Made by a program: the position numbers and the translations under genes
Source: Candidatus Gastranaerophilales bacterium
Lineage (GTDB): Bacteria > Cyanobacteriota > Vampirovibrionia > Gastranaerophilales > Gastranaerophilaceae
Reading direction: 5' to 3'
Assembly: GCA_944322885.1 (NCBI GenBank)
Contig: CALUQH010000004.1
Coordinates: forward strand, 1-50,842
Length of the DNA: 50,842 bases
Part shown: positions 3,630 to 40,841 of the stretch, piece by piece
Numbering within the stretch: the first letter of the stretch is position 1
Layout of the letters: each line of letters starts with the position of its first letter
Notes under the pieces: generated by a model
Seen by the model: the letters and a program-made list of their open reading frames with translations, nothing else
Database searches by the model: none
What the model was told of the DNA's origin: nothing

Positions 3630-3806
3630 ATGTCTAAGAAAATCAAAGTAGAATTTGAGCGTAGTTGTCAACCAGAAGACTTGGTTGTTAATAATGCGTT
3701 AATGACTCAGTTAATGGTTCAAATAGCTCAAGTAGGCCTCAGGAGCTGCTTTCCTGAAAGTTTTTGTAGTACAATAGAAAAGGAGAAAGAAAATGGCACG
3801 TACTAA
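3630..3806 (+). CDS. 58-residue protein overlapping the integrase start
   Basis: AAAGGAG lies 6 nt before the ATG at 3630 and a 58-codon frame follows, ending TAC TAA at 3804-3806. It overlaps the first 14 bases of the large serine integrase, so the two are probably translationally coupled. The product starts MSKKIKVEFERSC, has a hydrophobic middle (ALMTQLMVQIAQVGL) and three cysteines. No function is recognised. Small proteins next to serine integrases sometimes set recombination direction, but nothing in the sequence shows that here. Confidence 0.6.
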   Translation: MSKKIKVEFERSCQPEDLVVNNALMTQLMVQIAQVGLRSCFPESFCSTIEKEKENGTY

Positions 3807-5475
3807 AAGTAACGGTATTATTGTAGGTTACGGTAGAAAAAGTAAAGAGGACAAAGGCGTCAAATCTGTCAGTCCAGAAAACCAATACTCTCTTTGTTTG
3901 GAGTATGCCAAATCTAAAGGCTGTGAGTTTGTTTACTTTGAAGACATCAATAAAACTGGTGACAATTTAAACAGACCAGGCTTCAAAAATATGATGGCTT
4001 TTATTAAGAATAATAAAGTTAAGTGTATTGTCGTATGGCAACTCGACAGAATGACCAGAAACATGGAAGACTACTATGGAACGGTACACCCAACATTGAG
4101 GGCTTGTAATACTACCATAGCCAGTGTTAATCAACACTTTGATGATATATTTCAACTAGACCCTATGATTTTGGCTGTTTTTATGGGAATATCAGCCCAA
4201 GAATTAAAGAATACTAAGGACAGAAATAAAACTACGCTTGATTATAGAGCTAGAGCTGGTTACCTGCTCGGGAAAGCTCCTGTAGGGTATTTGAATGTTA
4301 GAGATGCTGAAAAACGTGGAGTAGTCATCCCAGACCATGAGAAAAGAGATTACATCAAGCACTGTTACGAATTGTATGCGACAGGATTATTTTCATATTA
4401 TAGAGTCAGTCAAGAGCTTGCAAAGTATGGTTTTGTTGACAGTAAGGGCAAACCTTACACAGTCAAAAGAATTGAAGATATATTAAAAAGCCCTGTGTAC
4501 ATTGGGAAGGTAATTCACAAAGACGAAATCTATGAGGGTAAACACGAACCAATCATAACAGATGAATTATTCTACAGAGTTCAACTATTGCTTGATGGTT
4601 CGGAAAACAAAAGTCCTAAAGGTAAAGTGTATTTATACTCAAACTTTATCAAATGTGCCCATTGTGGTTACAGCCTGGTTGGCATAACTAAAAGAGGTGC
4701 TCACCACAGTGGAATATACACATACTATCACTGTACAAATTATTCAAGAGCACATGTGAAGGAAAAGAATATCAGAGAAGAGTTGATTGACGAAGCCATG
4801 CAAGAAGTTATCGAAAGTTTTGACATAACTGAAAAAGAAGTCAATGCAATCAAGAAAGAGATTTATACTGCCATAGACGACCTTAAAAAGTATGAGCACA
4901 AATCTCTTGGTGAACTCAGAAAACAATATGATGATATTGTTGATAGCATTGCAGATTATTTAACAAATAAAGCAGACGGTATCAGTGACATTACTAGAGG
5001 AGAAGTCTTGCGAAAGTTAGAGGCAAAGAAAGATGCCATTGCACGTAACATCACACGTTTATCAGAAAATTCTAAAGAAACAACTAAACGTATCAGTATC
5101 TTGATAGACTTTGCAAACAGAATACCTGAACTTTATTTGAAAGCAACTCAGGAAGAAAAGAGACTCATATTAAATACGATTACAGAAGAAATCGTCTACA
5201 ATGAGGACTCTAACACCTTAACTGTAAGACTTAGACCAGTATTTGAACATCTTAGACAAGTAAAACTCGCTAAGAAACAAGAGTTTACAGCAGATATAAA
5301 TTCATTGACTGGAACCCTTGAAACTCGCTCTGCAGAAGCAAAAGAGGTACTAAGAAATCAAGCTAAAAACCTTAGCAATATTGAGGTGATTGGAACCCGC
5401 AAAAGTCGCTTGAATACTAAAATAGAGCCCCATAATGAAGACTCTAAAAAGTTAAATGTCGACGGCGGGACTTGA
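3793..5475 (+). CDS. Large serine recombinase (integrase) of the mobile element
   Basis: The 560-residue product has the standard order for large serine integrases. A catalytic resolvase domain covers about 1-150, with GYGRKS placing the nucleophile at Ser17 and QLDRMTRN supplying arginines. A recombinase domain around 170-270 contains GKAPVGYLN and SPVYIGKV. A zinc ribbon ([10 protein letters not shown] at about 287, YYHC at about 313) and a long coiled-coil region at about 345-440 follow. AAGGAG lies upstream. The final codons, VDGGT-stop, are read from the 3' end of tRNA-Leu. The gene therefore sits at the extreme edge of its element, and the junction with the host tRNA supplies its stop codon. 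Confidence 0.93.
5457..5475. other. Probable attachment-site region: integrase 3' end inside tRNA-Leu
   Basis: The integrase reading frame enters the tRNA-Leu gene at its 3' end and stops at 5475. Integration into the 3' part of a tRNA that leaves the tRNA intact is a common strategy for mobile elements. The crossover core cannot be fixed without the second copy, which would lie left of position 1. Confidence 0.55.
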
Positions 5476-8448: not shown

Positions 8449-9147
8449 CTATGAAGTAGTACCTAACTGGGATATAACTTTTTGTAAATTCTGATTTTGA
8501 ATCATAAAAATCTGCCTGTTTGCTTCAAAATTTCTTATAATAGGCATCATGCCCAAAAATTCGTTTTGCAGAGATACGTTCGAAAATTCATTGTATCCCT
8601 GTTTAACCTGCGGGTCCATAACTATAACGCCGTTAGAATCAACAATACCTATATATCCTGCAGTTTCCATTTTTTTTGTATCTTTGTTGAATACGCTGAC
8701 AAGGCCTTTTGAATTTACTTTTATATCTTCAATTTTTTCAGGGACAACAGGAAGCTGTATAGGAACCCCGGCGCTTGAAAGGACTCTGTCATCTTCTAAG
8801 TTCAACAAATAGCCTTCCTTGTCAATCTTGAATCTTCCGTCACGGGTTAACTTTACCCCGTCTGCGCTTTGGATTTGAAAATAGCCTTTATTGGCGAGAG
8901 CTAAATCAAGAGGATTGTCAGACATTGCAATACGTCCGACTTTATCATCAACAGTTTGGGAAAGACCGTGAACACCCAGAAATTCCGTAAACGAAGATAC
9001 TACAGGATCTTTTCTTTGATATCCTATCTTATCAAATCCTATAATATTTTCATTATACATTCCGATGAGTTCGCTCTGGACATGCATTGCTCGGAGCGAG
9101 GTTGTAATACCCTTTTCGCTGAATCTGATTCCACCGTGAATTATCAT
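8449..9147 (-). CDS. flgF: Flagellar basal-body rod protein, FlgF-like
   Basis: From the ATG at 9147, which has AAGAGG about 6 nt upstream, the product is 232 residues. An upstream frame extends to 9171 but lacks a ribosome-binding site. The protein has a divergent N-terminal rod helix (TTSLRAMHVQSELIGMYNENIIGFDKIGYQR), the central NPLDLALANKGYFQI and LTRDGRFKIDKEGYLLN shared by FlgF and FlgG, and the C-terminal NVSLQNEFLGMMPIIRNFEANRQIF. It is a paralogue of the next gene. It is first in the rod operon and has no hook or MS-ring genes nearby. Confidence 0.82.
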   Translation of the reverse strand: MIIHGGIRFSEKGITTSLRAMHVQSELIGMYNENIIGFDKIGYQRKDPVVSSFTEFLGVHGLSQTVDDKVGRIAMSDNPLDLALANKGYFQIQSADGVKLTRDGRFKIDKEGYLLNLEDDRVLSSAGVPIQLPVVPEKIEDIKVNSKGLVSVFNKDTKKMETAGYIGIVDSNGVIVMDPQVKQGYNEFSNVSLQNEFLGMMPIIRNFEANRQIFMIQNQNLQKVISQLGTTS

Positions 9148-9271: not shown

Positions 9272-10006
9272 TTAAGGCAGACAGTCAAAATATCCTTTTC
9301 CGGAACCGTCAGGACACGTATTTGCGATTGCATACTTAGTACATGCAAAACCGTTATCAGAAGCGTCAGAATCCCTTGAGCAATTTCCGTCGGTCCATTT
9401 ATAACCAAAATATGTATCAGATGTATTAGCACAATCTTCATCTTCCTCTGTACAATCACGCCATTGAGCGGTCATAGGTTCCAAATTACAATTATTCAGA
9501 TTCAAATGAAAAAAGAATAAATCATGACCGAAAGCATTAGGACCTTTGTTAACACCGTTTGTATCAATACTTATCATATTACCGAATGAGGCATTAGTAC
9601 AAAAAGATATAACAAGTCCATCTCCAAGTTGAGAAACATCAGTATACCATTGAAAACAATTTGGATGGATTTTTGCAGAAGTTACTTTTTTTGAATAAGT
9701 CTTAAAATCTGTATAATCCAAATGTGTAGTTTGTTGTAGTTTTACATTATTAAACTGCTCAAACAATAATTGTTTTATCTCATTACTGCTGCTTGCAGGA
9801 CAACTTATAAATTCTGATTTAACAGGAATAATAGCCTGAGAGAGAACCGAATAAGACTTTTTAAATCTTGTTTCAAGGGCCTTTCTTTGATAATTCAAAA
9901 GCAAGGACGGCATAGTCATTGCGGCGACTACTCCTATTATGCCTAGGGTAATAAGAACTTCTGCAAGAGTGAATGCATATAATTTCCCTTTAAAGTGATG
10001 TAACAT
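9272..10006 (-). CDS. Type IV prepilin-like protein 1 (short form)
   Basis: From the ATG at 10006 the product has 244 residues. It has an 11-residue basic leader and then the cleavage-and-helix motif A/FTLAEVLITLGIIGVVAAMTMP of type IV pilins and pseudopilins. The C-terminal domain is cysteine-rich (NCFQWYTD, CTNASFG, WRDCTEEDEDC, GYFDCLP), typical of large prepilin families of Gastranaerophilales-like genomes. The mature protein would sit in the inner membrane or a pilus-like fibre after prepilin-peptidase cleavage. The ATG is 6 nt after a TATACT box with no ribosome-binding site. The frame stays open upstream to a TTG at 10249 and would join an ATG at 10296 if the G run at 10260-10269 gained one base. 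Confidence 0.85.
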   Translation of the reverse strand: MLHHFKGKLYAFTLAEVLITLGIIGVVAAMTMPSLLLNYQRKALETRFKKSYSVLSQAIIPVKSEFISCPASSSNEIKQLLFEQFNNVKLQQTTHLDYTDFKTYSKKVTSAKIHPNCFQWYTDVSQLGDGLVISFCTNASFGNMISIDTNGVNKGPNAFGHDLFFFHLNLNNCNLEPMTAQWRDCTEEDEDCANTSDTYFGYKWTDGNCSRDSDASDNGFACTKYAIANTCPDGSGKGYFDCLP

Positions 10007-10012
10007 ATCACT

Positions 10013-10040
10013 AGTATAACATTTTTTATTTTCTTTGCAA
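10013..10040 (-). promoter_or_regulatory. Internal promoter for leaderless prepilin 1
   Basis: TTGCAA (10035-10040), a 16-bp spacer and TATACT (10013-10018) with an upstream TG form a good minus-strand promoter inside the long leader frame. The ATG at 10006 starts 6 nt after the -10 box. Confidence 0.55.
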
Positions 10041-10259
10041 GTATATTTTTTAAATTTTTGCTTTTGAAAAGAGAGTAGTTTATAATTGTTTTCTTTATTA
10101 CTGATAAGCGAGAGGACAAAAGTTGGTGGCAATAAATCAAAATCTTTCCTTACCTTTCCGAGTAATGAAAGAAATTTATATTTTAGTGAATTTTGTTCTC
10201 TGTAAAAAACTTTACTTCTCTGCCTCTTAACCTCTTTGCCGCACTCCAAGCCGTGAGTG

Positions 10260-10269
10260 CCCCCCCCCC
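10260..10269 (-). repeat. Homopolymer G10 tract in the prepilin 1 leader
   Basis: Ten consecutive C on the given strand, read as G on the coding strand. Tracts of this length slip readily during replication. Confidence 0.9.
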
Positions 10270-10315
10270 GAAGTTCTTGTTTTTAAACTCTTTCATATAT
10301 TTTCTCCTTTCGTTA

Positions 10316-10561
10316 TTAAGTCAATATTTCGTATAAAGTTGAAGCTTCCTGCACACTGACATTATTCTGCGGAACTTTTAATACGCGTGCGCAAACAGTT
10401 CTGTTTGCATATTCTATTTTTATTTCATCCCCTTCTTTTATTTGTTTTGAAGGCTTTGCAGGATTTCCGTTAACGTATACCCTTCCCATATCAGAAACTT
10501 CATTCGCTACAGTCCGTCTTTTTATTAATCTTGAAACCTTTAAAAATTTATCTAATCTCAT
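10316..10561 (-). CDS. S4-domain RNA-binding protein (RqcP/YabO family)
   Basis: The 81-residue product is almost entirely one S4 RNA-binding domain: MRLDKFLKVSRLIKRRTVANE, then GRVYVNGNPAKPSKQIKEGDEIKI. Length and layout match RqcP (YabO/HslR) proteins, which bind the 50S subunit during ribosome-associated quality control. That role is inferred from the family. A TATAAT at 10573-10578 lies only 11 bp before the ATG and there is no clear ribosome-binding site, so the leader is very short. The gene is divergent from the phosphoesterase, and the long prepilin 1 frame begins 19 bp after its stop. Confidence 0.85.
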   Translation of the reverse strand: MRLDKFLKVSRLIKRRTVANEVSDMGRVYVNGNPAKPSKQIKEGDEIKIEYANRTVCARVLKVPQNNVSVQEASTLYEILT

Positions 10562-31240: not shown

Positions 31241-31285
31241 AAAATGATTATCCCTATAATTTTTTACCAGGGATAATCATTTTTT
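31241..31285. terminator. Bidirectional terminator overlapping the prepilin 2 C-terminal codons
   Basis: AAAATGATTATCCCT (31241-31255) pairs with AGGGATAATCATTTT, followed by TT and an AT-rich stretch. The right arm is also the coding sequence for the last residues KNDYPW and the stop of prepilin 2 on the other strand. Confidence 0.85.
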
Positions 31286-32159
31286 ATCTGCCAGCCATCA
31301 AGCATGATAACAGCACTGCAGGCATCACCTGGGCCATAATAATCAGGTCCTGGAGACTCTTTATAACAACCTCCGGTACGTATAGGTCCATGTAATAATC
31401 TTTCTCTATCTAACTGCCCATCTCCTGTATAAGGTATTGTTCCGGCAAGACCAAACGGCTTAAATGATGTATCTTTTGAACTGTCAAGAACAAAAGTAAA
31501 AACATCTTTTCCGCTAAATGCAAAAGGTTTCGGATTTTTTACATATACACGAACGCGTGTCACATTTTCATAAGCCCCTCCATAACGTATAAACCCATAA
31601 GCTAAAGGAACACCGCCGGTAACAACCATATAATGCGGAACCTGCGCATTAGCGTTATTCAAAGACACATCATAGCCTAAACGATGTATACCGGAAAAAC
31701 CAAAACATTTACTACCAGCCTGACATTTCCCTGAATTAATTACTTTTACATAAGGTTCAAAATACGTCTGAACCCACTTATCTAATTCATCTGCTTTGCG
31801 ATAACGCCAATCTGAAATCATACCGTGTTCGGCTTCTGCCATTTTTAGAACTTGATTTAACTCAGAATAAGTCTTTCTGACAGATTCTTCCACAATCTTT
31901 TTACGATGATTAATTATCATACCGGGCATAGTCAAAGCAGCAACAACTCCGAGTACACCAAGAGTAACTAAAACCTCTGCAAGAGTAAAGGCTACTTTTT
32001 TATTACATAAATAATCTAATAAGGGAAAATATTTAATTTTCGGTGAACTATGTTCACAATAAAAAACTTTGCATCTTGACCTATTAGACTCTTTTCGCAG
32101 GAGAAAACTTAGAGCGCCCCCCCCCCGAAGCTATTGCTTAATTCTTTTAGTATTTCCAT
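31264..32159 (-). CDS. Type IV prepilin-like protein 2, out of frame as read (G10 tract)
   Basis: The pilin part contains VAFTLAEVLVTLGVLGVVAALTMPGM, then a variable domain with cysteines ending ACSAVIMLDGWQIKNDYPW. No ATG, GTG or TTG lies in frame near the cleavage site. The natural start is the ATG at 32159, with AAGGGAG 7 nt upstream and a good promoter. It reads MEILKELSNSF, then G10, and meets a stop five codons later. With an eleventh G the frame gives FGGGGALSFLLRKESNRSRCKVFY and runs into the pilin: 298 residues with a 57-residue leader. The leader is related to that of prepilin 1. As written, expression needs slippage or a changed tract. Confidence 0.75.
32117..32126 (-). repeat. Homopolymer G10 tract in the prepilin 2 leader
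   Basis: Ten C on the given strand, read as G on the coding strand, codons 12-15 of the upstream frame. The flanks (AGCTTC before, then CGCTCTAAG) resemble those of the tract at 39929 in the opposite orientation. Confidence 0.9.
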
Positions 32160-39899: not shown

Positions 39900-39928
39900 G
39901 ATTATGATATCAAAAAAGCTTAGAATTG

Positions 39929-39938
39929 CCCCCCCCCC
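39929..39938 (+). repeat. Homopolymer C10 tract between two prepilin genes
   Basis: Ten C. On the opposite strand its flanks (TTC before, then CAATTCTAAG) resemble those of the prepilin 2 tract, so the tract element occurs here in reverse orientation relative to the pilin. Confidence 0.9.
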
Positions 39939-39956
39939 GAAACCCTGACAAGCAGA

Positions 39957-39971
39957 AGGCAAGAGGTCAAG
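39957..39971. repeat. 15-bp sequence shared with the rpmG-tRNA spacer
   Basis: AGGCAAGAGGTCAAG occurs here and, inverted, at 48506-48520. Both copies are preceded at short distance by CAGAAG. Confidence 0.6.
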
Positions 39972-40023
39972 AAGGGAGGAGGGCAGGCCTGTATCGACGA
40001 GCAAAGCCTGCTTAAAAATAAAT

Positions 40024-40097
40024 ACCTTCCCTTATTAGGGAAGGTTAGGATGGGTTTCAAACAATACCCACCCCAGCCCTCCCTAATCAGGGAGGGG
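40024..40097. repeat. REP-like double palindrome translated in the prepilin 3 leader
   Basis: CCTTCCCT-TATT-AGGGAAGG (about 40025-40044) and CCCTCCCT-AATC-AGGGAGGG (about 40078-40097) flank GATGGGT...ACCCACCCC. A similar palindrome lies at 50540-50573. Here the element is inside the open leader frame and encodes LPLLGKVRMGF...PPQPSLIREGK. Confidence 0.75.
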
Positions 40098-40841
40098 AAG
40101 AATAATTACCTGAAACGAACTTATTCACTTAAGAAAAAGACCGCGTTTACACTGGCAGAAGTTTTAATCACTCTCGGAATTATTGGTGTTGTTGCAGCAA
40201 TGACTATACCTACGATTATCGGGAATTATAAAAAACAGGAAATTACATCAAAACTAAAAAAATTTTCATCAACAATGCAGAATGCTCTAAACATGGCAAC
40301 TACAGAATATGGAGATATTTCAACTTGGCAAAATCCGACAACACAAGGAGATGAAGAAGAAACCAATAAATTTTTTACAACATATATATTACCATTTTTA
40401 TCAGGTGTAAAAAATTGTAGTGCCGGAGTAAGCGATAGAGAATGCAGTAATTTAAGACAAGGTTTTGCCCCTGATGCCCCAAATAGAACTAATGCTTCTC
40501 TGTTTGTTTTCAACGATGGAAGCTGTTTTTCTCTTTATACGGGAGGGGCAGATACTCTACACGCAAACATACATTTTCTATATGATTATAACTGCAAAGG
40601 CAAACCTAATGAATACGATAAGGATAAATTTTCATTTATTCTCCTCATAGATTCGCTAAATAATTCTACTTTAAGGAACAGATTTAGGGCGGGTAGTGCA
40701 TCAACACATGAACTTACAAACCGGGACGATTTACTGGATGCCTGTAATAAACATACACAGACACATTATAGAGGCGGCTGCTCTGCATTAATTCAGTTCG
40801 ACGGCCGGGAAATTAAAGATGACTATCCGTGGATACATTAA
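40050..40841 (+). CDS. Type IV prepilin-like protein 3
   Basis: From the ATG at 40050 the product has 263 residues: a 32-residue basic leader (MGFKQYPPQPSLIREGK..., LKKKTA) and then FTLAEVLITLGIIGVVAAMTIPTI. The pilin domain has paired cysteines (KNCSAGVSDREC, GSCFSLYTG, GGCSALIQFDG) and ends EIKDDYPWIH, like the end of prepilin 2. The leader contains a REP-like palindrome read as protein. The frame is open further upstream to 39924 and would join the ATG at 39904 if the C10 tract were C11. GGAAGG lies 8-9 nt before the ATG. Confidence 0.87.
   Translation: MGFKQYPPQPSLIREGKNNYLKRTYSLKKKTAFTLAEVLITLGIIGVVAAMTIPTIIGNYKKQEITSKLKKFSSTMQNALNMATTEYGDISTWQNPTTQGDEEETNKFFTTYILPFLSGVKNCSAGVSDRECSNLRQGFAPDAPNRTNASLFVFNDGSCFSLYTGGADTLHANIHFLYDYNCKGKPNEYDKDKFSFILLIDSLNNSTLRNRFRAGSASTHELTNRDDLLDACNKHTQTHYRGGCSALIQFDGREIKDDYPWIH

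Follow-up and report, generated by a model that had tools for sequence, protein, structure and literature searches.

Variable pili and phase variation at poly-G tracts are both familiar from Neisseria (pilE/pilS and the poly-G tract of pilC), where one expressed pilin is accompanied by silent cassettes. The closest worked example for the system described here is Bifidobacterium breve UCC2003, in which G10 or G11 tracts lie in two sortase-pilus operons (bbr_0113 and bbr_1889) and the reading frame decides whether pili are made; in this experimentally studied case, tract length determines the fusion of two open reading frames (ORFs) and the population holds mixed lengths (PMC9187656). By scale, the nearest parallel is the poly-G phasome of the best-studied genus, Campylobacter, where tracts of nine (53%) and ten (26%) are frequent and C. 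jejuni carries a median of about 20 (PMC6321876). The locus considered here lies on the minus strand of a 50,842-nucleotide (nt) stretch (the window), contig C4 (CALUQH010000004.1) of a 1.86-Mb Gastranaerophilales genome designated G000, and consists of a start codon, a tract of ten G and a type IV-like prepilin gene in a frame one base away.

As in B. breve, likewise a gut commensal, where the G10/G11 run falls within the first gene for the pilus, the start-bearing ORF is split by frame from the remainder, and slippage would fuse the two. Unlike that Gram-positive actinobacterium with its two sortase-dependent loci, G000 carries about 50 type IV-like prepilins of this kind, a far larger repertoire in which the tracts have a flanking element in common, may lie on either strand and are in some cases accompanied by an internal promoter. 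The many poly-G tracts, mostly inside reading frames, recall Campylobacter, but lengths there are broader and poly-C tracts few, whereas here exactly ten accounts for 89% of the tracts flanked by C and 37 of 112 prepilin tracts are poly-C. Unlike Neisseria, the genome holds many prepilin genes that are complete, and every one has a start and a tract to itself. The literature searched contained no description of phase variation in Gastranaerophilales or Melainabacteria. We consider it probable that the tracts mediate replication-slippage phase variation of a prepilin repertoire that is OFF by default at length ten, the window gene being one of about 50 contingency loci. For a gut commensal from the cyanobacterial line, some 50 pilins that are off by default would make a very large single-family phasome, and one that annotation pipelines would tend to record mostly as truncated or start-less prepilins.

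Start codons, tracts and prepilin frames

In the window locus, an AAAGGAG Shine-Dalgarno (SD)-like site, read from the sequence at 10304–10310, stands 7 nt upstream of an ATG (10296–10294) that opens a 9-codon entry frame to the tract (MKEFKNKNF, 10270–10296). On this minus strand, TTC at 10272–10270 is followed by ten G (10269–10260) and then by CACTCACGG. The prepilin frame, open from 10249 to 9272 in the ORF list, is shifted by one base relative to ATG 10296, such that the prepilin is in frame at a tract length of 11 (or 8). The leader of 95 codons between tract and mature pilin (9974–10259) is open only in the prepilin frame. The initial annotation had described an ATG at 10296 with an AAGGAG-type site, following an S4 gene, running into G10 and leaving the pilin frame, and all of these features are present as placed; its proposal that one extra G would give a 341-residue prepilin agrees with the frame arithmetic, as one added base yields a frame of 1026 nt from that ATG.

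Two further units in the window repeat the arrangement. The second (31264–32159, minus strand) has its ATG at 32159, G10 at 32126–32117 and a prepilin from FTLAEV at 31989; in the third (39904–40841, plus strand) the tract is inverted, with ATG at 39904, C10 at 39929–39938 and FTLAEV at 40146, a frame counted by hand as 25 + 10 + 207 nt. Both need 11 or 8, and all three window tracts thus precede prepilin genes at the same length of ten with the same one-base offset. Runs of at least eight G have an expectation of 0.18 per window, against three G10 runs present; this figure, together with the genome counts, rules out a chance origin of the tracts.

Across G000, 66 runs of 9–11 G occur (58 of ten, five of eleven, three of nine), and in 53 cases a tract followed by an open leader separates an SD-ATG from a type IV-like prepilin bearing a FTLAEVLITLGI-type motif; among these 53, the length is ten in 47, eleven in 5 and nine in 1. 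The 33 genomes analyzed from the genus together contain 148 runs of 9 G, 1621 of 10 and 150 of 11. Tracts flanked by C on both sides contribute 79, 1458 and 95 (nines and elevens counted by hand from lists), and those with other flanks are exactly ten in 57% of cases. Up to 175 runs of 9–11 G are present per genome (G010), mostly at prepilins in the genomes examined. The mode differs in two divergent members of the genus, being eleven in G025 and nine in G002. When named genomes were searched for the tract together with its right flank, the hits were Candidatus Gastranaerophilales metagenome-assembled genomes (MAGs) and one "uncultured bacterium" MAG. Beyond the genus such tracts are rare: in an order-wide draw of 212 genomes, TCG10C is frequent in the genus and sparsely represented in some further genera of its family, and the 22 genomes from other families yielded no instance. 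Recurrence of the layout across genome and genus rules out an isolated oddity and suggests a large stochastic repertoire of surface proteins.

The frame relationship was followed in 112 tract-prepilins from many species, all sharing the ATG, entry frame and tract architecture. Of these, 92 are in frame only at 11 (or 8), an excess with a binomial value of 3e-26 against one third that is descriptive, the genes not being independent. As assembled, 95 are OFF and 17 ON. The offset is equal whether G or C stands on the coding strand. In G000, 47 of 53 fall into the 11/8 class; the rule does not hold everywhere, as the sister species G008 has 18 of 27 in that class and 9 of 27 ON. Over 5134 leader codons, 13 stops occur in the prepilin frame, compared with 362 and 455 in the other two. 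The initial annotation's expectation that the long frame is real is borne out by this layout of ATG, tract, open leader and prepilin in more than 100 genes, with almost no stops in the tract-gated frame. Leaders have a median length of 33 codons and a maximum of 201. The very long leaders of L108, L112 and L121 seem to be built of dispersed repeats (VILNLFQDL, SPSLIREG, SRRGRG), in frame. No ATG, GTG or TTG lies between tract and pilin in 54 of the 112 genes, and in these, therefore, any switching predicted from the sequence must be on/off; at length ten, their upstream start can yield a pilin only through some alteration at the tract.

Tract length and the explanations for it

Invariance of tract length, which the initial annotation took as the observation that would tell against switching, is approached across genomes by the predominance of ten among C-flanked tracts, yet 12 of 44 interspecies pairs of orthologous or related tracts differ by one base. 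L101 and L111 have lengths of 10 and 9 at 92.6% flank identity; other differing pairs are L065/L120 (9 vs 10), L174/L153 (11 vs 10) and L059/L225 (10 vs 11). One-base differences between orthologues fit replication slippage. The marks by which a contingency locus can be recognized in sequence are accordingly found together at these genes: tracts beyond chance, a length change that would switch the frame, and length differences between orthologues.

Under replication-slippage phase variation, a strong SD and ATG would start a short frame that runs through G10 (or C10) and continues as a long leader joined to a type IV-like prepilin, and slippage during replication would alter the length of the tract. 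A length of ten would leave most genes OFF because they are out of frame, whereas at 11 (or 8) the ATG would read through and prepilin would be made. Only a minority of cells would then have any given gene ON, and individual cells would display few of the approximately 50 pilins, in a sparse and stochastic manner. Layout, offset, open leaders, recurrence and length differences between related loci are direct observations, and phase variation, the switch proposed in the initial annotation, stands as the best explanation for the recurring leaders and the orthologue differences; slippage and switching within a population, expression of the genes, cleavage of the prepilins and their role at the surface are what we infer. 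The hypothesis makes it possible to ask by experiment how the bacterium limits the number of variants per cell and why tract length is held so tightly.

Several observations weigh against this reading. The length differences are between species, not between strains or within one population, and some of the pairs may be paralogous. Length is near-constant, at ten in 89% of C-flanked tracts, a distribution that free slippage does not obviously give. Leaders of up to 201 codons are unusual for prepilins. Finally, the flanks are kept on both sides and in both orientations, though slippage requires none. The conserved arrangement is TTC, G10, CACTCTARGCTCC for coding-strand G and a near inverse for coding-strand C; in the window locus the dispersed element (10248–10272, minus strand) has a CACTCTARGCTCC-like right flank, and its copies precede prepilin genes in both orientations. 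It is conceivable, though doubtful, that tract and flanks form a dedicated element of 25 bp and that the tract is actively maintained at ten, which would keep the repertoire default-OFF and one base from ON, with prepilins exchanged as cassettes between slots or lineages. In G-type units (for example, L014, L032, L047 and L059), GGCTCC(TT) behind the tract is complementary to the SD sequence AAGGAGC and could hide the ribosome site; the pairing shows a weak excess over shuffles (3.9 vs 2.7 nt).

Near-constancy at ten is also what would be expected if the DNA did not change and RNA polymerase or the ribosome slipped on G10/C10, adding one base in some transcripts. Such programmed expression slippage, which we judge unlikely, would account for a needed change that is almost always +1 and for the half of genes that have no other start yet are mostly OFF as assembled. 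Tract behavior outside the common case points the other way. Coding-strand C10 obeys the same +1 rule, a pattern that ribosomal −1 shifting would not favor, and tracts of nine keep an in-frame length of 11/8, uncompensated (L111, L065); a ribosomal −1 programmed frameshift is disfavored because C-tracts share the rule and nines are uncompensated. In addition, tracts of eleven are mostly in frame, the modal length shifts to eleven in G025 and nine in G002, and a 0-frame stop after the tract (CTC TAG) is kept neither in C-type genes nor in the window gene.

The conservation of flanks in both orientations and at unrelated genes raises the alternative that the 25-bp element serves primarily at the DNA level, as a site where recombination or cassette exchange takes place or a protein binds, and that the frame offset is a by-product. 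Sister-species homology is often lost within ~15 nt of the tract, to be regained close to the stop codon of the pilin, and some assemblies have contigs that terminate in repeated copies of the element. This explanation nevertheless appears improbable. An open prepilin frame and a non-random offset have been maintained, which requires translation through the tract; moreover, at the nucleotide level the 5′ breakpoint often falls in the promoter-SD region, outside the element, and no conserved motif after the pilin stop was found that would explain the 3′ breakpoint, only AT-rich words. The contig ends near tracts were also considered as a sign of strain mixture, a possibility ruled out as the ends are shared repeats and not length variants.

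An assembly artefact, in which a true run of eleven is assembled as ten and the genes are simply in frame, is very improbable: sequencing through G-tracts is difficult and the lengths given in annotations may be incorrect (PMC9187656), but the same assemblies call runs of nine and eleven, non-prepilin genes in the same genome are mostly in frame at ten, and the pattern holds across 29 genomes.

The prepilin and its internal start

The short form of the window prepilin (9272–10006, minus strand; 244 amino acids) begins at a putatively leaderless ATG and carries the leader MLHHFKGKLYA before FTLAEV. Its cleavage/methylation motif scores 17.6 bits against NCBIfam TIGR02532, above the cut-off of 16.3, and 16.4 against Pfam N_methyl (PF07963), under the cut-off of 21.2. 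The mature pilin (9272–9973, 233 amino acids) begins FTLAEVLITLGIIGVVAAMT. In the predicted model, a helix at residues 4–55 is followed by strands, with a predicted local distance difference test (pLDDT) score of 70; a search of the PDB with this model gave no significant match, and a sequence profile search matched geopilin over the first 36 residues only.

Upstream of this ATG lies a putative internal promoter (10013–10040, minus strand) comprising TTGCAA, a 16-nt spacer and an extended −10 element, TGT-TATACT. It forms part of a module, TTGCAA-N16-TATACT-AGTGAT-ATG with TG before the −10, in which the promoter ends 7 nt before ATG 10006, placing the ATG at the expected start of transcription. 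An imperfect, operator-like palindrome, GTGATATGTTACATCAC (9995–10011, minus strand), covers the predicted transcription start. The promoter assignment is a consensus match, and promoter-like matches are no commoner in the stretch than in shuffles (10 vs 8.3). The module of promoter, palindrome and ATG nonetheless recurs in related units, at 15 places in the fetched loci; 14 of these are between tract and prepilin and in the prepilin frame, and the ATG is at the same spot in 10. The sequence TATAATAGTGATATGAAACATCAC of this module occurs almost only between tract and prepilin (window 9995–10040, L015, L036, L062, L208, L217–L226).

This recurrence makes it likely that the window locus produces the short-leader prepilin irrespective of tract length. 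There the internal promoter and ATG 10006 would probably give a short-leader form at any length, and the tract would add a second, long-leader source, affecting dose or timing and not acting as a plain on/off switch. A prepilin peptidase would cut long and short forms before FTLAEV, yielding the same mature pilin. The suggestion in the initial annotation that the tract may switch leader length instead of on/off therefore remains plausible for the window locus, where the tract may alter leader length or dose, but does not extend to tract-prepilins in general, about half of which have no later start.

Prepilin turnover and tracts in other genes

The segment 9273–10323 (minus strand) is absent from the sister species G008, in which the S4 gene runs straight to the flgF-like region; flanking genes are mostly 85–99% identical between the two. 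In the window, these neighbors are an S4-domain RNA-binding protein gene upstream (10316–10561, minus strand; Pfam PF01479) and a flagellar basal-body rod/hook protein gene downstream (8449–9147, minus strand; Pfam PF22692 and PF06429). Seven slots compared between G000 and G008 retain the same neighbors and tract around a wholly different prepilin (L234/L243, L235/L244, L237/L246, L238/L247, L239/L248, L240/L249 and L242/L251), with homology extending no further than the tract, if that far, and returning at the prepilin stop or shortly beyond it, or further on in two slots. No match above 47% amino acid identity was found among the tract-prepilins of G008 for any of the 53 in G000. Cassette shuffling within this pair is unsupported, as the best G008 matches are 31–46% identical. 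In more distant species the window pilin is kept at 67–75% identity, mostly in the same neighborhood. Turnover of the prepilins is so rapid that hardly any are common to sister species.

Tracts of this kind also occur inside glycosyltransferase, F420-type/pyruvyl-transferase, NAD-epimerase and polysialyltransferase-like genes, which are usual targets of phase variation. Flanks in the glycosyltransferase and F420-type/pyruvyl-transferase genes are partly similar to those of the prepilin element. In contrast to the prepilins, most of the other tract genes of G000 are in frame at the length assembled. A candidate surface-polysaccharide phasome comprises genes with G10/C10 (L018, L024, L027, L040, L133) or G11 (L154, L156, L160), encoding glycosyltransferases, a 4Fe-4S/F420-type and polysaccharide pyruvyl transferase protein, an NAD epimerase, a polysialyltransferase-like protein and a methyltransferase. 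In L054, near position 2001 (G000:C31:44013), the end of a short frame containing the G10 tract overlaps with the start of a gene resembling a glycosyltransferase (ATGCCTAA); the short frame is open to that start at length ten, an arrangement that looks like tract-dependent translational coupling. Elsewhere in the window, a large serine-recombinase-like ORF (3793–5475; GRKSKED...DRMTRN) lies near flagellar genes.
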